From Bacteroidales bacterium (GTDB taxonomy: Bacteria; Bacteroidota; Bacteroidia; Bacteroidales; UBA932): DNA of 42,906 bases. The translations under genes and the position numbers were made by a program. The notes under the pieces are model-generated. The model saw nothing but the letters and a program-made list of their open reading frames with translations. It was not told where the DNA came from and ran no database searches. The stretch covers positions 1 to 42,906 of the forward strand of contig DUNA01000012.1 of assembly GCA_012839605.1 (NCBI GenBank), given 5' to 3'. Shown one piece after another: positions 33,619 through 42,764 of the stretch; the first letter of the stretch is position 1; each line of letters starts with the position of its first letter.

Positions 33619-34380
33619 TTATTTCAAGAAGAACTGGTTTAAAAAATCCTGGAAATCCTTCTTATATTGGTCCCCTATGGGAACACTGGCTTCTTTGTTA
33701 AATACAATTCGGTTTTGAACAACTTCAGTGATTTTTTTCAGATTCACAATAAAAGATCTGTGTACCCTCATGAACGTATCTTTTGGCAAACGAGCTTCAA
33801 TAGTTTTTAAGCTAAAAAGTGTCATCACGGGATGGCTGTTTTCTGAAAAAACAACCACATATTCTCTTCTGCTTTCTATGTACTGTATGTCCGATATTTT
33901 CAGTCTTACTGTACGAGAATCTGCCCTGACAAATACGTACTCATTATCCCATGCTCCATGGCTGTCTTCGTCCTCTACATCGTCCTCTGATTTATCTTTA
34001 GTCATAGAAGCAGCCGTTCTCAATTCGTATTGTTGTTTCACCTTCTCTGCACTTCTTATAAAATCTGATAAGCTAAAGGGCTTTAGCAGATAATCTGTAG
34101 CGTCTACTTGAAATCCCTGAACAGCAAAGTCTGAATAAGCCGTTACAAAAACAACAATCGGTCTGTCTTTTAAAGAACGTATGTATTCCATCCCGTTAAT
34201 ATCGGGCATCTCAATATCCGTGAAAATGGCATCTATTTTCTCTGTGGCTAATACTTCCATAGCCTCTGTGGGTCCGGTACAGGCTTTGACAAGCTCCAGG
34301 TAAGGAATTTTTTCAACATACATAGCCATCTGTTGAAGTGCCAAAGGTTCATCATCTATAACAATACACCTGATTTTCAT
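33619..34380 (-). CDS. LytTR-family response regulator
   Basis: This is a 253-residue two-component regulator. The receiver domain has acidic residues Asp9-Asp10, phospho-acceptor Asp55 (IFTDIEMPD), Thr80 and Lys100 (YLLKPF). A variable acidic linker (about 125-145) joins it to a C-terminal LytTR DNA-binding domain (about 150-250, FVRADSRTVRLKISDIQYIESRREYVVV). LytTR domains bind pairs of direct repeats about 21 bp apart. A matching pair lies upstream of its own operon at 35632-35661. The gene is 3 bp downstream of its cognate kinase gene. Confidence 0.93.
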   Translation of the reverse strand: MKIRCIVIDDEPLALQQMAMYVEKIPYLELVKACTGPTEAMEVLATEKIDAIFTDIEMPDINGMEYIRSLKDRPIVVFVTAYSDFAVQGFQVDATDYLLKPFSLSDFIRSAEKVKQQYELRTAASMTKDKSEDDVEDEDSHGAWDNEYVFVRADSRTVRLKISDIQYIESRREYVVVFSENSHPVMTLFSLKTIEARLPKDTFMRVHRSFIVNLKKITEVVQNRIVFNKEASVPIGDQYKKDFQDFLNQFFLK

Positions 34381-34383
34381 AAT

Positions 34384-35430
34384 CTACATTTTAATAGGGA
34401 GTTCTAACTGTACAGCATACTCCGTCCTTGATTCATTTTCTCCCATAGTCAATTTGTAATCATCACCATAAAGGAGCTTCAGACGTTCTGTCACATTTTT
34501 AATGCCCAACCCTCCTTCTTTTACGGATTTTGGTTTTTCCGGAAATATCGAATTTGTAATGGAAAAATGGAATCGTCCCGGCTCTACCCAAAAGTTCATA
34601 CTTATCAAAGTATCTTCTCCGTATACAATACCATGCTTAAAAGCGTTTTCAATAAACACAATCAAAATAAGCGGTGGTAACGCGACATTCGGCATATCGC
34701 GAGGTACCGTAATATTCAATTTCACGTTATCTCCATACCTAAGGAGATTCAAATTGCAGTATGCTCTAAACACCTCCATTTGTCGAGAAAAAGAAATGGT
34801 GGTCTCCGGCGTACTTTCATACAACATATGACGTAGCAATCTGGACAAACTGACAATGGCTTCTTTTGCTTTCTGATCATCTGTATCTACTAAGACGTGA
34901 ATGTTGTTTAACGTATTCATTAAAAAGTGAGGACTTATTTGGAATTGCAAAAACTCCATTTTATACCTCATCAATTTGTTATCAGCCTCGTGCGCCAGCA
35001 TTTTGTCCTTGATGCTGTGAAAAACAAGACGAACGGCCACATTCATACCCATTAACAACAGTGCAATGACAAAGTTGCTCAGCAACGTAGATTCATAAGG
35101 TATGTAATTGGACCATCGTGCACCGTATTCTGCATCCAATATATTTACAATGGCTTCACAACCAAAGACAATGCCTAATAATAATGTAAATAAAAGAAAA
35201 AAATACGTAAAATAATCTCCTTTAAATAAAAAGAAAGGAACGTACAGATAATGGTGCAACAGCAGACCTATAAAAAAAGGAGAAAGGATAGCCCAAAGTA
35301 CAATAACATGTTGTTGGATTAAAATAGGACTGAGAAAAGCCACCCCCATAAGCCCCCACAAAGTCAGATTTTCTAGTCTTCTTAGTTTCTTAAGCTCCTT
35401 GTCAATATGGTACTCTTTATGTTCTGCCAT
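34384..35430 (-). CDS. LytS-type sensor histidine kinase
   Basis: This 348-residue inner-membrane kinase has four predicted membrane helices (about 22-60, 62-92 and 115-138) with little extracytoplasmic sequence, so the signal may be sensed within the membrane. The His_kinase domain (PF06580 type) has phospho-acceptor His168 in ISPHFLMNTLNNIH. The ATP-binding part shows LPPLILIVFIENAFKHGI (N box) and GGLGIKNVTERL (G box). It pairs with the downstream LytTR regulator. The start is ATG 35430, about 140 nt below a strong promoter, with two hairpins in the leader. Confidence 0.92.
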   Translation of the reverse strand: MAEHKEYHIDKELKKLRRLENLTLWGLMGVAFLSPILIQQHVIVLWAILSPFFIGLLLHHYLYVPFFLFKGDYFTYFFLLFTLLLGIVFGCEAIVNILDAEYGARWSNYIPYESTLLSNFVIALLLMGMNVAVRLVFHSIKDKMLAHEADNKLMRYKMEFLQFQISPHFLMNTLNNIHVLVDTDDQKAKEAIVSLSRLLRHMLYESTPETTISFSRQMEVFRAYCNLNLLRYGDNVKLNITVPRDMPNVALPPLILIVFIENAFKHGIVYGEDTLISMNFWVEPGRFHFSITNSIFPEKPKSVKEGGLGIKNVTERLKLLYGDDYKLTMGENESRTEYAVQLELPIKM

Positions 35431-35482
35431 ATGTATTAGGAACGAAGATACAACTTAAGTGAGAATTTATAAAAATAAAAAA

Positions 35483-35529
35483 AGGTGGGACTAGATTTCC
35501 CACCTGTGAAAAAGATTTCGCATCTTTTT
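35483..35529 (-). terminator. Two hairpins, the second terminator-like, in the leader of the kinase operon
   Basis: Read on the minus strand, hairpin A is AAAAAGAT (35529..35522) with ATCTTTTT (35516..35509) and a 5-nt loop. Hairpin B is AGGTGGGA (35505..35498) with TCCCACCT (35490..35483) and a 7-nt loop, followed by TTTTTTTATTTTT (overlapping 35483..35471). B is a good intrinsic terminator. It lies between a promoter (35576-35607) and the kinase ATG (35430), so it may attenuate the kinase operon. It may also simply end transcripts of the M16 protease gene upstream. Confidence 0.75.
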
Positions 35530-35575
35530 TGTGTTCGTTTTTAGTTCAAAAAACCATTCATTATTTATCCTACCA

Positions 35576-35607
35576 CAAAGTTAAGCGACAGAGTTAACAA
35601 ATACAAA
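35576..35607 (-). promoter_or_regulatory. Promoter of the kinase-LytTR-menA operon
   Basis: On the minus strand TTTG (35607..35604), a spacer of exactly 20 bp, and TAACTTTG (35583..35576) give a full match to the Bacteroidota consensus. The start site would be near 35570. It is 24 bp downstream of the nearest LytTR-type repeat. Confidence 0.72.
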
Positions 35608-35631
35608 CAGGATCTTTTGAAAACAGCGTTG

Positions 35632-35661
35632 CATCTACGAACCGACCTGTTTCATCTACGA
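35632..35661 (-). repeat. Direct repeat of 9 bp with 21-bp period, candidate LytTR operator
   Basis: TCGTAGATG occurs twice on the minus strand (35661..35653 and 35640..35632), separated by 12 bp. This gives two helical turns between repeats, the geometry reported for LytTR regulators. The bases preceding each repeat are also similar. The pair lies immediately upstream of the -33 element of the operon encoding the LytTR regulator, in an activator position, and downstream of the M16 protease stop. Confidence 0.6.
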
Positions 35662-35687
35662 GCGGCCTTATTTTTTCTACATAACGT

Positions 35688-39479: not shown

Positions 39480-39920
39480 ATGGCCATGAAAACCATTTTT
39501 TATTTATCCGCTCTTTGCCTGGGCACATTGTTTATTTATCCGTTACAAGCCCAGGTAGTAGTTACCGGTCACGTTTCAGCTGAAATCGTTGACATAGTCT
39601 CTATCTATTCCCAAACAGTTGTTAGCCAAGAAGTAATTTCTCTTTCTGACTTTGTCTTTGGAGAAGTTGCTGTTACTTCAGGTGATGATATGGCTTTCCA
39701 AGTTCTCTTATCACCTGCAACCGTTAAAGGAAAGGAAGGAAATGTCTTATTTCTGGAAACTTCCTACACATCGCTTGGGAAAAAAAATGAAGAGGCCGTA
39801 AGTTCACTTTATGAAAATAGTGACCGGGTTTTACAATTGAAAAGTAATACAGACATGTTGCATGAACAGGCTCCCGGACCGTATCAAGGTTCTTGCCGTT
39901 TAACCCTCTCTTACAACTGA
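39480..39920 (+). CDS. Secreted pilin-like protein (DUF4402-like)
   Basis: ATG 39480 gives 146 residues with a clear signal peptide (MAMKTIFYLSALCLGTLFIY, then PLQAQ). ATG 39486 is an equally possible start. The mature part begins VVVTGHVSAEIVDIVSI. It has the phrase SLSDFVFGEVAV, like the xLxFGxl element of DUF4402 proteins, and ends GPYQGSCRLTLSYN, like their terminal beta strand. Such proteins occur beside fimbrial ushers, and one follows here after 84 bp. I infer a fimbrial or surface subunit. The fold call is tentative because the similarity is short. It has its own strong promoter and is followed by a terminator. Confidence 0.6.
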   Translation: MAMKTIFYLSALCLGTLFIYPLQAQVVVTGHVSAEIVDIVSIYSQTVVSQEVISLSDFVFGEVAVTSGDDMAFQVLLSPATVKGKEGNVLFLETSYTSLGKKNEEAVSSLYENSDRVLQLKSNTDMLHEQAPGPYQGSCRLTLSYN

Positions 39921-40004: not shown

Positions 40005-42764
40005 ATGCAATCTAACAAAAGATGCTCCCTATATAAATCTTATTTACGTTTAATCATCGGCTTTTTGCTGATTTCAGGACCTGTTTTGGCTCTGCCTGCC
40101 GGTTCAGATGACGAAGAATATCTAGAAGAAATGATAGTCTATTTTTCTGTTCCTCGTATTGGAGGAGCAGATATTGCGGCCGTTCTTGGAGATTCAGATA
40201 TTTATTTGTCAATTTTGGATATTTTTGATTTCCTAAAAATTAAAAACTCATCCACTCCGGGATTTGATCGAATTCATGGATTTTTTATTACCGAAGACGC
40301 TCCTTACGAAATAGATCGTGTACATCTTAAAATTACCTATAAAGATAAAGAATACACACTCAAGCCCACTGATTTAATACGATCGGAAACAGGTTTGTAT
40401 CTGAAAATAGAATATTTTGGACAAATCTTTGACTTAGATTGTAATTTTAACTTCAGAAGCCTTTCAGTAACCATGAACACCAGCATTGAATTGCCGGTTA
40501 TCAGGGAGATGAGACAGGAGCAAATGCGAAAAAGTCTTGGAAGATTTCGTGGGGAAATCACTGCCGATACAACCATTCGTAGGAAATATCCACTCTTTCA
40601 TTTTGGGATGGCAGATTGGAATGTCATCTTGACACAACAGCTGCAAGGCAATAAAGATGCGCGTATCACAATGAACTTGGGTAGTATATTGGCAGGTGGT
40701 GAAGCCAATGTCCGGCTCAACTACGATACAAGAAGTGGTTTTCAATTAAGAAACCAATTCTTTGAATGGCGTTTTGTCAATAACGACTTCAAAGTCATGC
40801 GCCAGGCAACTGTCGGACAAATAAGTACATTTTCTACTTCTACCATTAATCATCCTGTCCTGGGGGTTCAACTCACAAACACGCCCACCACATACCGGCA
40901 ATCTTTTGGAACCTATACACTGAGTGATTTTACAGAACCCGACTGGACAGTTGAGCTCTACGTAAACAATGTGCTGATTGACTATCAAAAGGCCGATGCT
41001 TCTGGCTTTTACTCCTTTGAGGTTCCTATGGTTTATGGGAACACCGTTGTCAAGCTCCAGTTCTACGGCCCTTGGGGAGAAGAACGGTATAAAGAACAAA
41101 CTCTGAACATCCCGTACAATTTCCTTCCTCCCGGTACTTTTGAGTACAGAGCCTCGGCAGGAGTTGTTCAAGATGATCAATGGAGCCGGTTTTCCAGAGT
41201 AGACATGGATTATGGAGTAGCTCGATTTATGACCATGGGGGCCGGTGTCGAATACCTTTCCTCTGTCACATCCACTCCTGTCATGCCCTTTGCAAAAGCC
41301 TCTGTCAGACCTCTGTCCAGCCTTCTGATCACCGGTGAATACATGCACAAAGTAAATGTTAAAGGAACCTTAAACTGGAGGCTTCCTTCCGACATACAAC
41401 TGGAGCTGAAATATACTAAGTACGATAAAGAACAAAAAGCTATCAACACCAATTATCTGGAAGAAAGGAGAGTCTCTCTGTCCATTCCCATCAGAGGAAA
41501 ACAGCTTTCCTTTTATACAAGGATGGGAGCCAGCCAAATTATTATGCCCAATAGCTCATTTGCTACAACAGAACTGTTGTTATCGGGTAATTTATTTGGT
41601 GTCAGTTCAAACCTGACCACTTATGCTTCTTTTTCACCTTTTTCAAAACCTGTTATTTTCAGCAATCTTTCATTATCTGTACGTCTGCCTTATTCTTTTA
41701 TACTAAATCCTCAAACGCAATTCAGCTATAGTCAGAAAAAATTTATTTCTGCCAGACTTGCTGTTGAAAAACGTATAAAAGGAAGCGGGTACATAAATAT
41801 GTCTTATGAAAGAAACTTTCTTTACGGATCTTCTAACATAGAATTGGGCATGCGCTACGATTTCTCTTTTGCTCAAATCGGCTTCTCGGCACGTAAGAGC
41901 AATAAGGCATACTCTTTTGTTGAATCCTTCAGTGGAAGTGTAATGGCAGATGCACGTACCAAGTACTTAGGTTTCACCAACAGAAGTAGTGTTGGAAGAG
42001 GAGGTATGGTATTACGTCCTTTCCTGGACCTGAACTGGAATGGCGTATGGGACAAAGGAGAACCCAAAGTCTTTGGTTTGGAAGTCAGGGTAAGTGGTGG
42101 CAGGATTCAGTATAACGAACGCGATACACTTACACGAGTATACGATCTACAGCCTTATACAGAATACCTGGTTTCTTTGGATGGGAAAAACATGGATAAC
42201 ATTTCCTGGAGATTACCTCATGAAACGATGAGCATTGTAGTAGACCCCAACCAATTTAAGCATATAAATATACCTGTGGTTGTAATAGGAGAAGCTTCCG
42301 GAGAAGTCTATTTACGTAGTGATAACATGCTGAAAGGACAAGGAAGAATTACGGTGCACTTTTACAATAAAGACACGGTCCTCAGGTATACAACCATGAC
42401 AGAATCCGATGGATATTTCAGCTTTATGGGCCTTCCTCCGGGAGACTACCTAGCTGCCATAGACCCGCAGCAAATGGAGAAGTTGAACATGACGGCCTCT
42501 CCGGCCTTTACACCCTTCACTATTAACCCTTATATTGACGGAGACCTGGTTTACGATTTGGAATTTACCATATGGTCCAACAATCCGGTAGAAAAACCGG
42601 TAGTTAAAGAAGAAGCTAAGCCTGTTACAGAAATAGCTAAACCCAAACCCGTTACAGAAATCGCAAAACCCGATACAACATTCGTTGGGCCGCCGATAGA
42701 AAAACCTGCAGTTAAGTCTGCTGTTAAACCTGTAGTTAAAGAAGAAGCTAAGTGGAATTACTAA
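40005..42764 (+). CDS. Fimbrial-usher-like outer-membrane protein
   Basis: This 919-residue protein has a signal peptide (to about residue 30, PVLALP) and an N-terminal usher-like segment (YFSVPRIGGADIAAVLGDSD, LSILDIFDFLKI). A large beta barrel follows, with a plug-like domain (VELYVNNVLIDYQKADASGFYSFEVPM, about 325-355) and C-terminal beta-sandwich domains. These include FLDLNWNGVWDKGEP (calcium-type SdrB-like loop) and a carboxypeptidase-regulatory-like fold (TESDGYFSFMGLPPGDY). The tail (about 865-919) is a Pro/Lys/Glu repeat. In chaperone-usher systems the usher secretes and assembles subunits. No chaperone is in the window; it may lie beyond the insertion sequence. Homology to ushers is by pattern, not search. 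Confidence 0.75.
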   Translation: MQSNKRCSLYKSYLRLIIGFLLISGPVLALPAGSDDEEYLEEMIVYFSVPRIGGADIAAVLGDSDIYLSILDIFDFLKIKNSSTPGFDRIHGFFITEDAPYEIDRVHLKITYKDKEYTLKPTDLIRSETGLYLKIEYFGQIFDLDCNFNFRSLSVTMNTSIELPVIREMRQEQMRKSLGRFRGEITADTTIRRKYPLFHFGMADWNVILTQQLQGNKDARITMNLGSILAGGEANVRLNYDTRSGFQLRNQFFEWRFVNNDFKVMRQATVGQISTFSTSTINHPVLGVQLTNTPTTYRQSFGTYTLSDFTEPDWTVELYVNNVLIDYQKADASGFYSFEVPMVYGNTVVKLQFYGPWGEERYKEQTLNIPYNFLPPGTFEYRASAGVVQDDQWSRFSRVDMDYGVARFMTMGAGVEYLSSVTSTPVMPFAKASVRPLSSLLITGEYMHKVNVKGTLNWRLPSDIQLELKYTKYDKEQKAINTNYLEERRVSLSIPIRGKQLSFYTRMGASQIIMPNSSFATTELLLSGNLFGVSSNLTTYASFSPFSKPVIFSNLSLSVRLPYSFILNPQTQFSYSQKKFISARLAVEKRIKGSGYINMSYERNFLYGSSNIELGMRYDFSFAQIGFSARKSNKAYSFVESFSGSVMADARTKYLGFTNRSSVGRGGMVLRPFLDLNWNGVWDKGEPKVFGLEVRVSGGRIQYNERDTLTRVYDLQPYTEYLVSLDGKNMDNISWRLPHETMSIVVDPNQFKHINIPVVVIGEASGEVYLRSDNMLKGQGRITVHFYNKDTVLRYTTMTESDGYFSFMGLPPGDYLAAIDPQQMEKLNMTASPAFTPFTINPYIDGDLVYDLEFTIWSNNPVEKPVVKEEAKPVTEIAKPKPVTEIAKPDTTFVGPPIEKPAVKSAVKPVVKEEAKWNY
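42600..42752 (+). repeat. Direct repeats in the usher-like gene's 3' end
   Basis: A 21-bp unit is repeated exactly at 42600-42620 and 42732-42752 and encodes VVKEEAK. Between them PVTEIAKP is encoded twice at 42621-42671. Near-identical units may allow slippage or recombination that changes tail length. Confidence 0.7.

Follow-up and report, generated by a model that had tools for sequence, protein, structure and literature searches.

The window analysed here, a 42.9-kb stretch of DNA (42,906 nucleotides, whose numbering is used throughout) from a Bacteroidales genome assembled as 91 contigs and 1.65 Mb, carries on its minus strand a two-component system in which a regulator with receiver and LytTR domains and a His_kinase-type sensor are encoded in one operon. 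The kinase and regulator genes are separated by 3 nt, and the regulator is followed by a UbiA-family prenyltransferase. The region between the kinase and the M16 peptidase gene upstream of it contains the features listed below in the direction of transcription.

35688, minus strand: stop of the M16 peptidase gene, upstream border of the intergenic region
35675 to 35683, minus strand: weak third LytTR-type half-site, TATGTAGAA, one 21-bp period further upstream
35653 to 35661, minus strand: LytTR-type half-site 1, the exact 9-mer TCGTAGATG
35632 to 35640, minus strand: LytTR-type half-site 2, TCGTAGATG, 21 bp from half-site 1 and centred at about -65 from the predicted start
35576 to 35607, minus strand: putative sRNA promoter of the Bacteroidota type, TTTG-N20-TAACTTTG
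35477 to 35571, minus strand: predicted sRNA of about 95 nt, from the predicted start site to the end of the T-run
35554 to 35571, minus strand: predicted 5' pairing arm, AGGAUAAAUAAUGAAUGG, the last base of which also opens hairpin 1
35537 to 35554, minus strand: hairpin 1 (GUUUUU/AAAAAC), by fold prediction
35532 to 35544, minus strand: predicted 3' pairing arm, CUAAAAACGAACA, overlapping hairpin 1 on its 3' side; the 11 other aligned copies read ACGUACA
35509 to 35529, minus strand: hairpin 2, by fold prediction
35477 to 35505, minus strand: predicted intrinsic terminator of the sRNA (hairpin 35505-35483, T-run to 35477)
35443 to 35450, minus strand: second -7-like box, TATCTTCG, past the terminator and ahead of the kinase
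34384 to 35430, minus strand: LytS-type sensor kinase, ATG at 35430; His_kinase PF06580 over cut-off
33619 to 34380, minus strand: LytTR response regulator; Response_reg PF00072 and LytTR PF04397 over cut-off in Pfam

An earlier note on this DNA had taken the region to be the self-control region of the operon, made up of an operator, a promoter and an attenuator. The 9-bp direct repeat with a 21-bp period that it described is confirmed as an exact pair of TCGTAGATG words, and the full TTTG-N20-TAACTTTG promoter lies exactly where it had been placed, with TTTG at 35607-35604 and TAACTTTG at 35583-35576. When the 88-bp region was shuffled, 22 of 20,000 shuffles contained an exact 9-mer repeated at a period of 20-23, and 33 of 5,000 one repeated at any period; the feature is not unique to this site, as the whole window holds three start positions at which an exact 9-mer recurs at 21 bp. 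Both half-sites are exact copies of TCGTAGATG only in the source genome and in G011 among 12 genomes. The genome-wide search that the note had suggested for finding a regulon, run for the box pair at up to three mismatches, recovered the site itself with no mismatches and no second site, against four matches in the backward control. The operator and promoter part of the earlier reading is supported, since the repeat and the promoter downstream of it are both conserved and boxes of this type stand before some fimbrial genes. The note had also counted two hairpins before the kinase ATG; the terminator-grade one stands, and we count three in all. Terminator-like sites number one in 701 bp, against 0.3 expected.

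Orthologues of the kinase were found in 12 other searched genomes of the genus (61-86% identity), and the region upstream is assembled in 12 genomes including the source; the G002 contig begins inside the terminator, and the sRNA alignment omits it. Pairwise identity across these 12 genomes is 0.56 at the end of the peptidase gene, 0.67 between its stop and the first box, 0.77 over repeat 1 (35664-35649), 0.38 in the spacer, 0.65 over repeat 2 (35642-35628), 0.59 from the box to -33, 0.74 in the -33 region and 0.46 in the promoter spacer. It is 0.93 in the -7 box, 0.51 over the next four bases and again 0.93 across the 94-nt block 35571-35478; over the 22 bases after the block it is 0.46, in the second -7-like box 0.86, from there to the ATG 0.66 and at the start of the kinase 0.65. 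The repeat, the -7 box and the hairpins are all conserved within the genus, and the stretches outside the promoter boxes, repeats and block show 38-67% pairwise identity. This pattern, in which conservation sets in at the expected transcription start and is lost after the T-run, is characteristic of an RNA gene.

The start-to-terminator block and the second -7-like box before the kinase indicate that the element is most likely a stand-alone sRNA gene of about 95 nt with its own promoter, and not the leader of the kinase mRNA. Its promoter and its intrinsic terminator can both be read in the sequence. Past the terminator, a TAT[AC]TT[CT]G box lies 12-17 bases before the kinase ATG in all 13 genomes. 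Among sampled genes the TAnnTTTG form occurs in 163 of 647 upstream stretches, in 92 on the opposite strand and in 10 of 647 coding controls; for the TAnnTTCG variant the corresponding counts are nine, six and four, an enrichment that is not clear. For that reason we regard a separate promoter for the kinase-regulator operon, after the sRNA terminator, as likely but not certain.

Attenuators usually take the form of a strong terminator within a leader, and the position of this one fits: the element lies on the same strand as the kinase and directly upstream of it, and the -7 variant of the second promoter is weak. The promoter might thus drive the kinase operon, with the terminator as a cis switch that lets some transcripts through, as the earlier note had proposed. 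Set against this are the stem-pair probabilities of the terminator (0.87-1.0), at which no antiterminator fold was seen at equilibrium, the conservation of the second -7-like box past it in 13 of 13 genomes, and the conserved block, which includes the 5' arm and does not extend past the T-run. Attenuation would also leave the complementarity of the RNA to the starts of fimbrial mRNAs, described below, unexplained. We consider it improbable. Direct autoregulation of the kinase-regulator operon, for which we found no positive support here, may still occur but would require read-through. A terminator before a gene can pass for an attenuator when relatives are left uncompared. The block could also be conserved for a short peptide, MNGFLN (AUG AAU GGU UUU UUG AAC UAA), and none of the 12 aligned copies breaks its frame. 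Invariance extends, however, to third codon positions and to nearly all flanking bases, and a peptide needs neither, which makes this very unlikely.

The stand-alone RNA appears to be restricted to one genus. A covariance model built from the 12 copies yielded one full-length match (E < 1e-16) in each of 12 genomes, all in the genus, out of 299 searched in the family, and an exact 23-base core was found in 11 contigs of an 84,980-species collection, again all in the genus, a count from which own-genome records were possibly left out. Two distant matches to the model (L072 and L073, E 0.003-0.006) are terminators only, in unrelated sequence; a match in G020 (L044) was taken as chance, as were the other 11 own-genome matches of the sRNA search (E 0.1-4.5). 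The Rfam scan gave no family at threshold and listed no RNAIII match; the best of eight sub-threshold matches was manA-II, which aligned weakly here (26.4 bits, where the gathering score is 100), mostly through AT-rich stretches and the terminator.

The consensus fold has three hairpins. Covariation is minimal, with one pair changed on both sides, because the sequence hardly varies. Nucleotides 1-18 are invariant in the 12 copies except for a 2-nt insert in G006, and in the G008 copy the predicted unpaired probability is 0.68-0.99 for nucleotides 1-17 and 0.1 for nucleotide 18. In the source-genome copy with its tail extended to 35470, the minimum-free-energy fold pairs part of the 5' arm with the U-tail. 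The source-genome sRNA alone of the 12 reads ACGAAC in place of ACGTAC.

A search of the genus for the complement of the sRNA 5' end found it at the starts of fimbrillin-like lipoprotein genes and of a pilin-like gene. The 5' arm and the arm at the 3' side of hairpin 1 are complementary to the starts of fimbrial genes, namely of a pilin-like gene, a fimbrillin operon and a DUF4402 pilin gene. The relevant features of the window are these:

39486 to 39920, plus strand: pilin-like gene, predicted sRNA target; no Pfam match in this copy
39493 to 39509, plus strand: predicted sRNA site within the pilin-like gene (codons 3-8); pairs with the 5' arm at 16 of 17 positions, one of them G-U
40005 to 42764, plus strand: large protein downstream of the pilin-like gene, usher-like by eye

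The pilin-like gene lies about 4 kb from the sRNA in the window, 4-11 kb from it in nine genomes and on a separate contig in three. Five of 12 of its homologues match DUF4402 weakly (best E 0.0008). TTTATTTATCCG occurs twice in its signal peptide (39480-39545), which gives the 5' arm another, weaker site some 30 nt further on. The Pfam, NCBIfam and PDB searches gave no usher match for the large protein, so the label 'usher-like' comes from reading its sequence. Structure predictions were too poor for a fold search (pLDDT 48 for the pilin-like protein and 31 for the large one). The fimbrillin-like lipoprotein genes sit behind a purine nucleoside phosphorylase gene, with an Mfa_like_1 match in G004; in four of the ten genomes that have the phosphorylase gene, fimbrillin A is not found behind it.

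To place this complementarity against background, we ranked duplex energies over the gene starts in sampled stretches, up to 335 per genome. The pilin-like gene ranked first of 197 starts in G009, first of 124 in G008, first of 30 in the window and fifth of 335 in G004, where fimbrillin A was first and fimbrillin B fourth; the best-pairing start was a pilin-like or fimbrillin gene in all four genomes. Ranks two and three in G004 are non-fimbrial (an ORF that matches no Pfam family and a DsbD-like protein). When each arm was scored on its own, fimbrillin A came first of 335 for both, and the pilin ranked first and first of 125 in G008, first and second of 198 in G009, and third and seventh of 335 in G004. 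Shuffled sRNAs reached the native energy 0-6 times in 500 for the six fimbrial starts tested; for the two non-fimbrial G004 starts they did so 0 and 4 times, so shuffles alone do not separate the fimbrial starts.

Among 12 pilin orthologues, a set that leaves out the G010 homologue (34% identity) and paralogues, duplex energies range from -33.8 to -17.8 kcal/mol, the weakest (G005) falling within the upper background; the G002 value was computed with the G008 sRNA. More distant pilin paralogues in G008, G010 and G011 give -17 to -19 kcal/mol. A two-part pattern covering both arms gave 23 matches in 13 genomes, against four in the backward control; nine are pilin starts and four fimbrillin A starts, and the other ten lie elsewhere. 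Judged against background and shuffles, base-pairing of the sRNA with mRNAs of other loci is a strong prediction.

Two further stretches complementary to the RNA were seen. In G008 a decayed fimbrillin A leader (contig C9, L080 4240-4300) is complementary to most of the first 39 nucleotides of the sRNA and might, from its appearance, descend from an inverted copy of that RNA. In G004 a 21-nt perfect complement of the hairpin 1 region (contig C7, 66203-66223; L046 1501-1521; E 9e-4) spans the stop codon of an apparent outer membrane protein gene, and could be either chance or an unusual 3'-end target.

The second complementary word, TGTACGTTT or a close variant, lies near the predicted 5' end of the same fimbrial mRNAs and matches AAACGUACA in the sRNA. 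Of the 12 pilin leaders, 11 contain GTACG. The one that lacks it is from the source genome, which is also the only one whose sRNA reads ACGAAC; there only the 5' arm pairs well with the pilin-like mRNA. GTACG likewise occurs in the fimbrillin A leaders of G004, G001, G012, G005 and G008, and is absent from that of G011, which is partly masked. These words and the TTATCC words might instead be DNA operators or codon habits of signal peptides, given that in pilin genes the palindrome GTAC follows the -7 box by 3-4 nt, and that the codons of hydrophobic signal peptides are AT-rich. GTACG, however, lies within 14 nt of TAnnTTTG at only three of 643 sites in an 800-kb sample, two of which belong to the pilin-like gene; shuffled sRNAs of the same composition seldom match, and both parts are common to different Pfam families (Mfa_like_1 and DUF4402-like). 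The source genome moreover differs on the sRNA side and the target side alike. We hold the reading as operators or codon habits to be quite unlikely.

We also examined whether LytTR-type boxes occur elsewhere in the genus. A scan for the 21-bp-period repeat gave 134 matches against 78 in the control, which suggests that most of them are noise; of the 12 genomes in which the region is assembled, it picked up the sRNA promoter in 11, all but G012. Twelve stretches were chosen by eye as intergenic-looking or recurrent: six precede a DUF4402-type pilin gene, one precedes a fimbrillin gene (G002), three precede a secreted-nuclease lipoprotein and two lie inside reading frames. The DUF4402 call is by Pfam in two genomes (G008 and G004) and by likeness of the first residues in the others, the G012 contig ending just past the ATG. 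In G005 and G008, three half-sites before the DUF4402-type gene pass the scan.

The DUF4402-type leaders, which were found through the boxes and not through the sRNA, pair with the sRNA up to the start codon. In five of the six genomes only 2-4 of 652 sampled starts pair as well, and the G010 leader is no better than background (172 of 652 starts as good); the 652 starts were drawn from G004, G009 and G008 rather than from each target's own genome. As boxes precede DUF4402-type genes whose leaders also pair with the sRNA, a single type of regulator may activate the sRNA and a pilin alike. In G002 (contig C13, L257 1154-1260) a LytTR-type box stands directly before the fimbrillin gene behind the phosphorylase, the position that carries the sRNA-complementary fimbrillin A leader in other genomes. 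A weaker repeat of 21-bp period precedes the secreted lipoprotein in G004, G005 and G012 (L253, about 1277-1460; L252 and L254); the G004 protein, the one of the three run against Pfam, has BACON, DUF5689 and Endonuclease_NS domains.

Taken with the promoter, the start-to-terminator conservation, the predicted fold, and the complementarity to fimbrial starts with its rank against background, all of which are shown by sequence, we think it probable that the element encodes a stand-alone, trans-acting sRNA that is driven by a LytTR regulator and represses fimbrial mRNAs by two-arm pairing. The adjacent LytTR response regulator would bind the 21-bp-period repeats upstream of -33 and activate the RNA of about 95 nt. 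The source genome encodes three further LytTR-domain proteins (G000:C54 and G000:C80; L048-L050), two of which share a contig and lie about 5 kb from each other, so it is from position that we infer which regulator binds. The 5' arm, AGGAUAAAUAAUGAAUGG, would pair with codons 3-8 of fimbrial mRNAs and the 3' arm, CUAAAAACGUACA, with UGUACGUUU near their predicted 5' end, so that translation would be blocked by a duplex on either side of the start codon. Transcription of the kinase-regulator operon would begin at its own promoter, past the sRNA terminator.

Pairing over early codons or the start codon normally blocks initiation. The duplex here would cover codons 3-8, and in the DUF4402-type mRNA the pairing reaches the start codon, both of which tell against an activating RNA whose pairing at the mRNA 5' end protects the message or repositions a GCC/GGC hairpin before the AUG. 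Such a hairpin is predicted just before the AUG in most of the 12 pilin leaders, where the duplexes would bracket it and not break it, and boxes precede a pilin gene as well; activation nonetheless seems to us unlikely.

The repressing sRNA may have a wider role. The same box type stands before the DUF4402-type pilin and, in one genome, before a fimbrillin, so the system might exchange one fimbrial set for another or damp its own pilin. More tentatively, at what we would put at slightly under an even chance, the locus is the fimbrial switch of one Bacteroidales genus: the LytTR system would activate a DUF4402 pilus operon together with an sRNA that silences fimbriae of different classes (fimbrillin-type and pilin/usher-type) by pairing with two arms around the start codon, and targets in only some species would have evolved complementarity to a nearly invariant RNA. 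If true, this would link LytTR signalling to the choice of fimbriae in Bacteroidales. To our knowledge, few sRNA targets are known in Bacteroidota. The RNA comes with a predicted regulator, a predicted target set and a one-species difference on both the RNA and target sides, and the proposal is thus directly testable.

No LytTR-sRNA-fimbriae circuit of this kind was found described in the titles and abstract openings searched, a body of text that has most subscription papers outside its coverage. Several known systems resemble parts of it. In the LytTR Regulatory Systems HdrRM and BrsRM, 9-bp repeats with a 12-bp gap lie upstream of the promoter (PMC6193735), and the 9-12-9 geometry found here agrees with theirs. 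Those systems, however, comprise a regulator and a membrane inhibitor instead of a kinase and a receiver-domain regulator, and their repeats lie about 10 bp from the -35 box, whereas ours precede an sRNA, 24 bp from its -33 box. GibS and other intergenic sRNAs of Bacteroides thetaiotaomicron are described as having their own start site and an intrinsic terminator, with TAnnTTTG as the -7 box in the phylum (PMC7366714); the promoter type and sRNA properties seen here agree with that account. In contrast to those sRNAs, with which we compare it by description, the present RNA is genus-restricted and has predicted fimbrial targets.

The Escherichia coli sRNA RprA is under two-component control and requires Hfq. 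The likeness is that it acts on a surface-structure pathway (PMC3465796); its target there is csgD, a regulator, and the phylum is different. A parallel in layout is the agr system of Staphylococcus aureus, in which AgrA, a LytTR regulator, acts through RNAIII, an RNA made beside its own operon (PMC4227749). Both combine a two-component LytTR regulator with direct repeats centred about 60 bp upstream of a regulatory-RNA promoter that adjoins the operon. The RNA described here differs from RNAIII in being about 95 nt long, in lying on the same strand as the operon instead of divergently and in having predicted fimbrial targets, and the likeness, one of layout, is loose.
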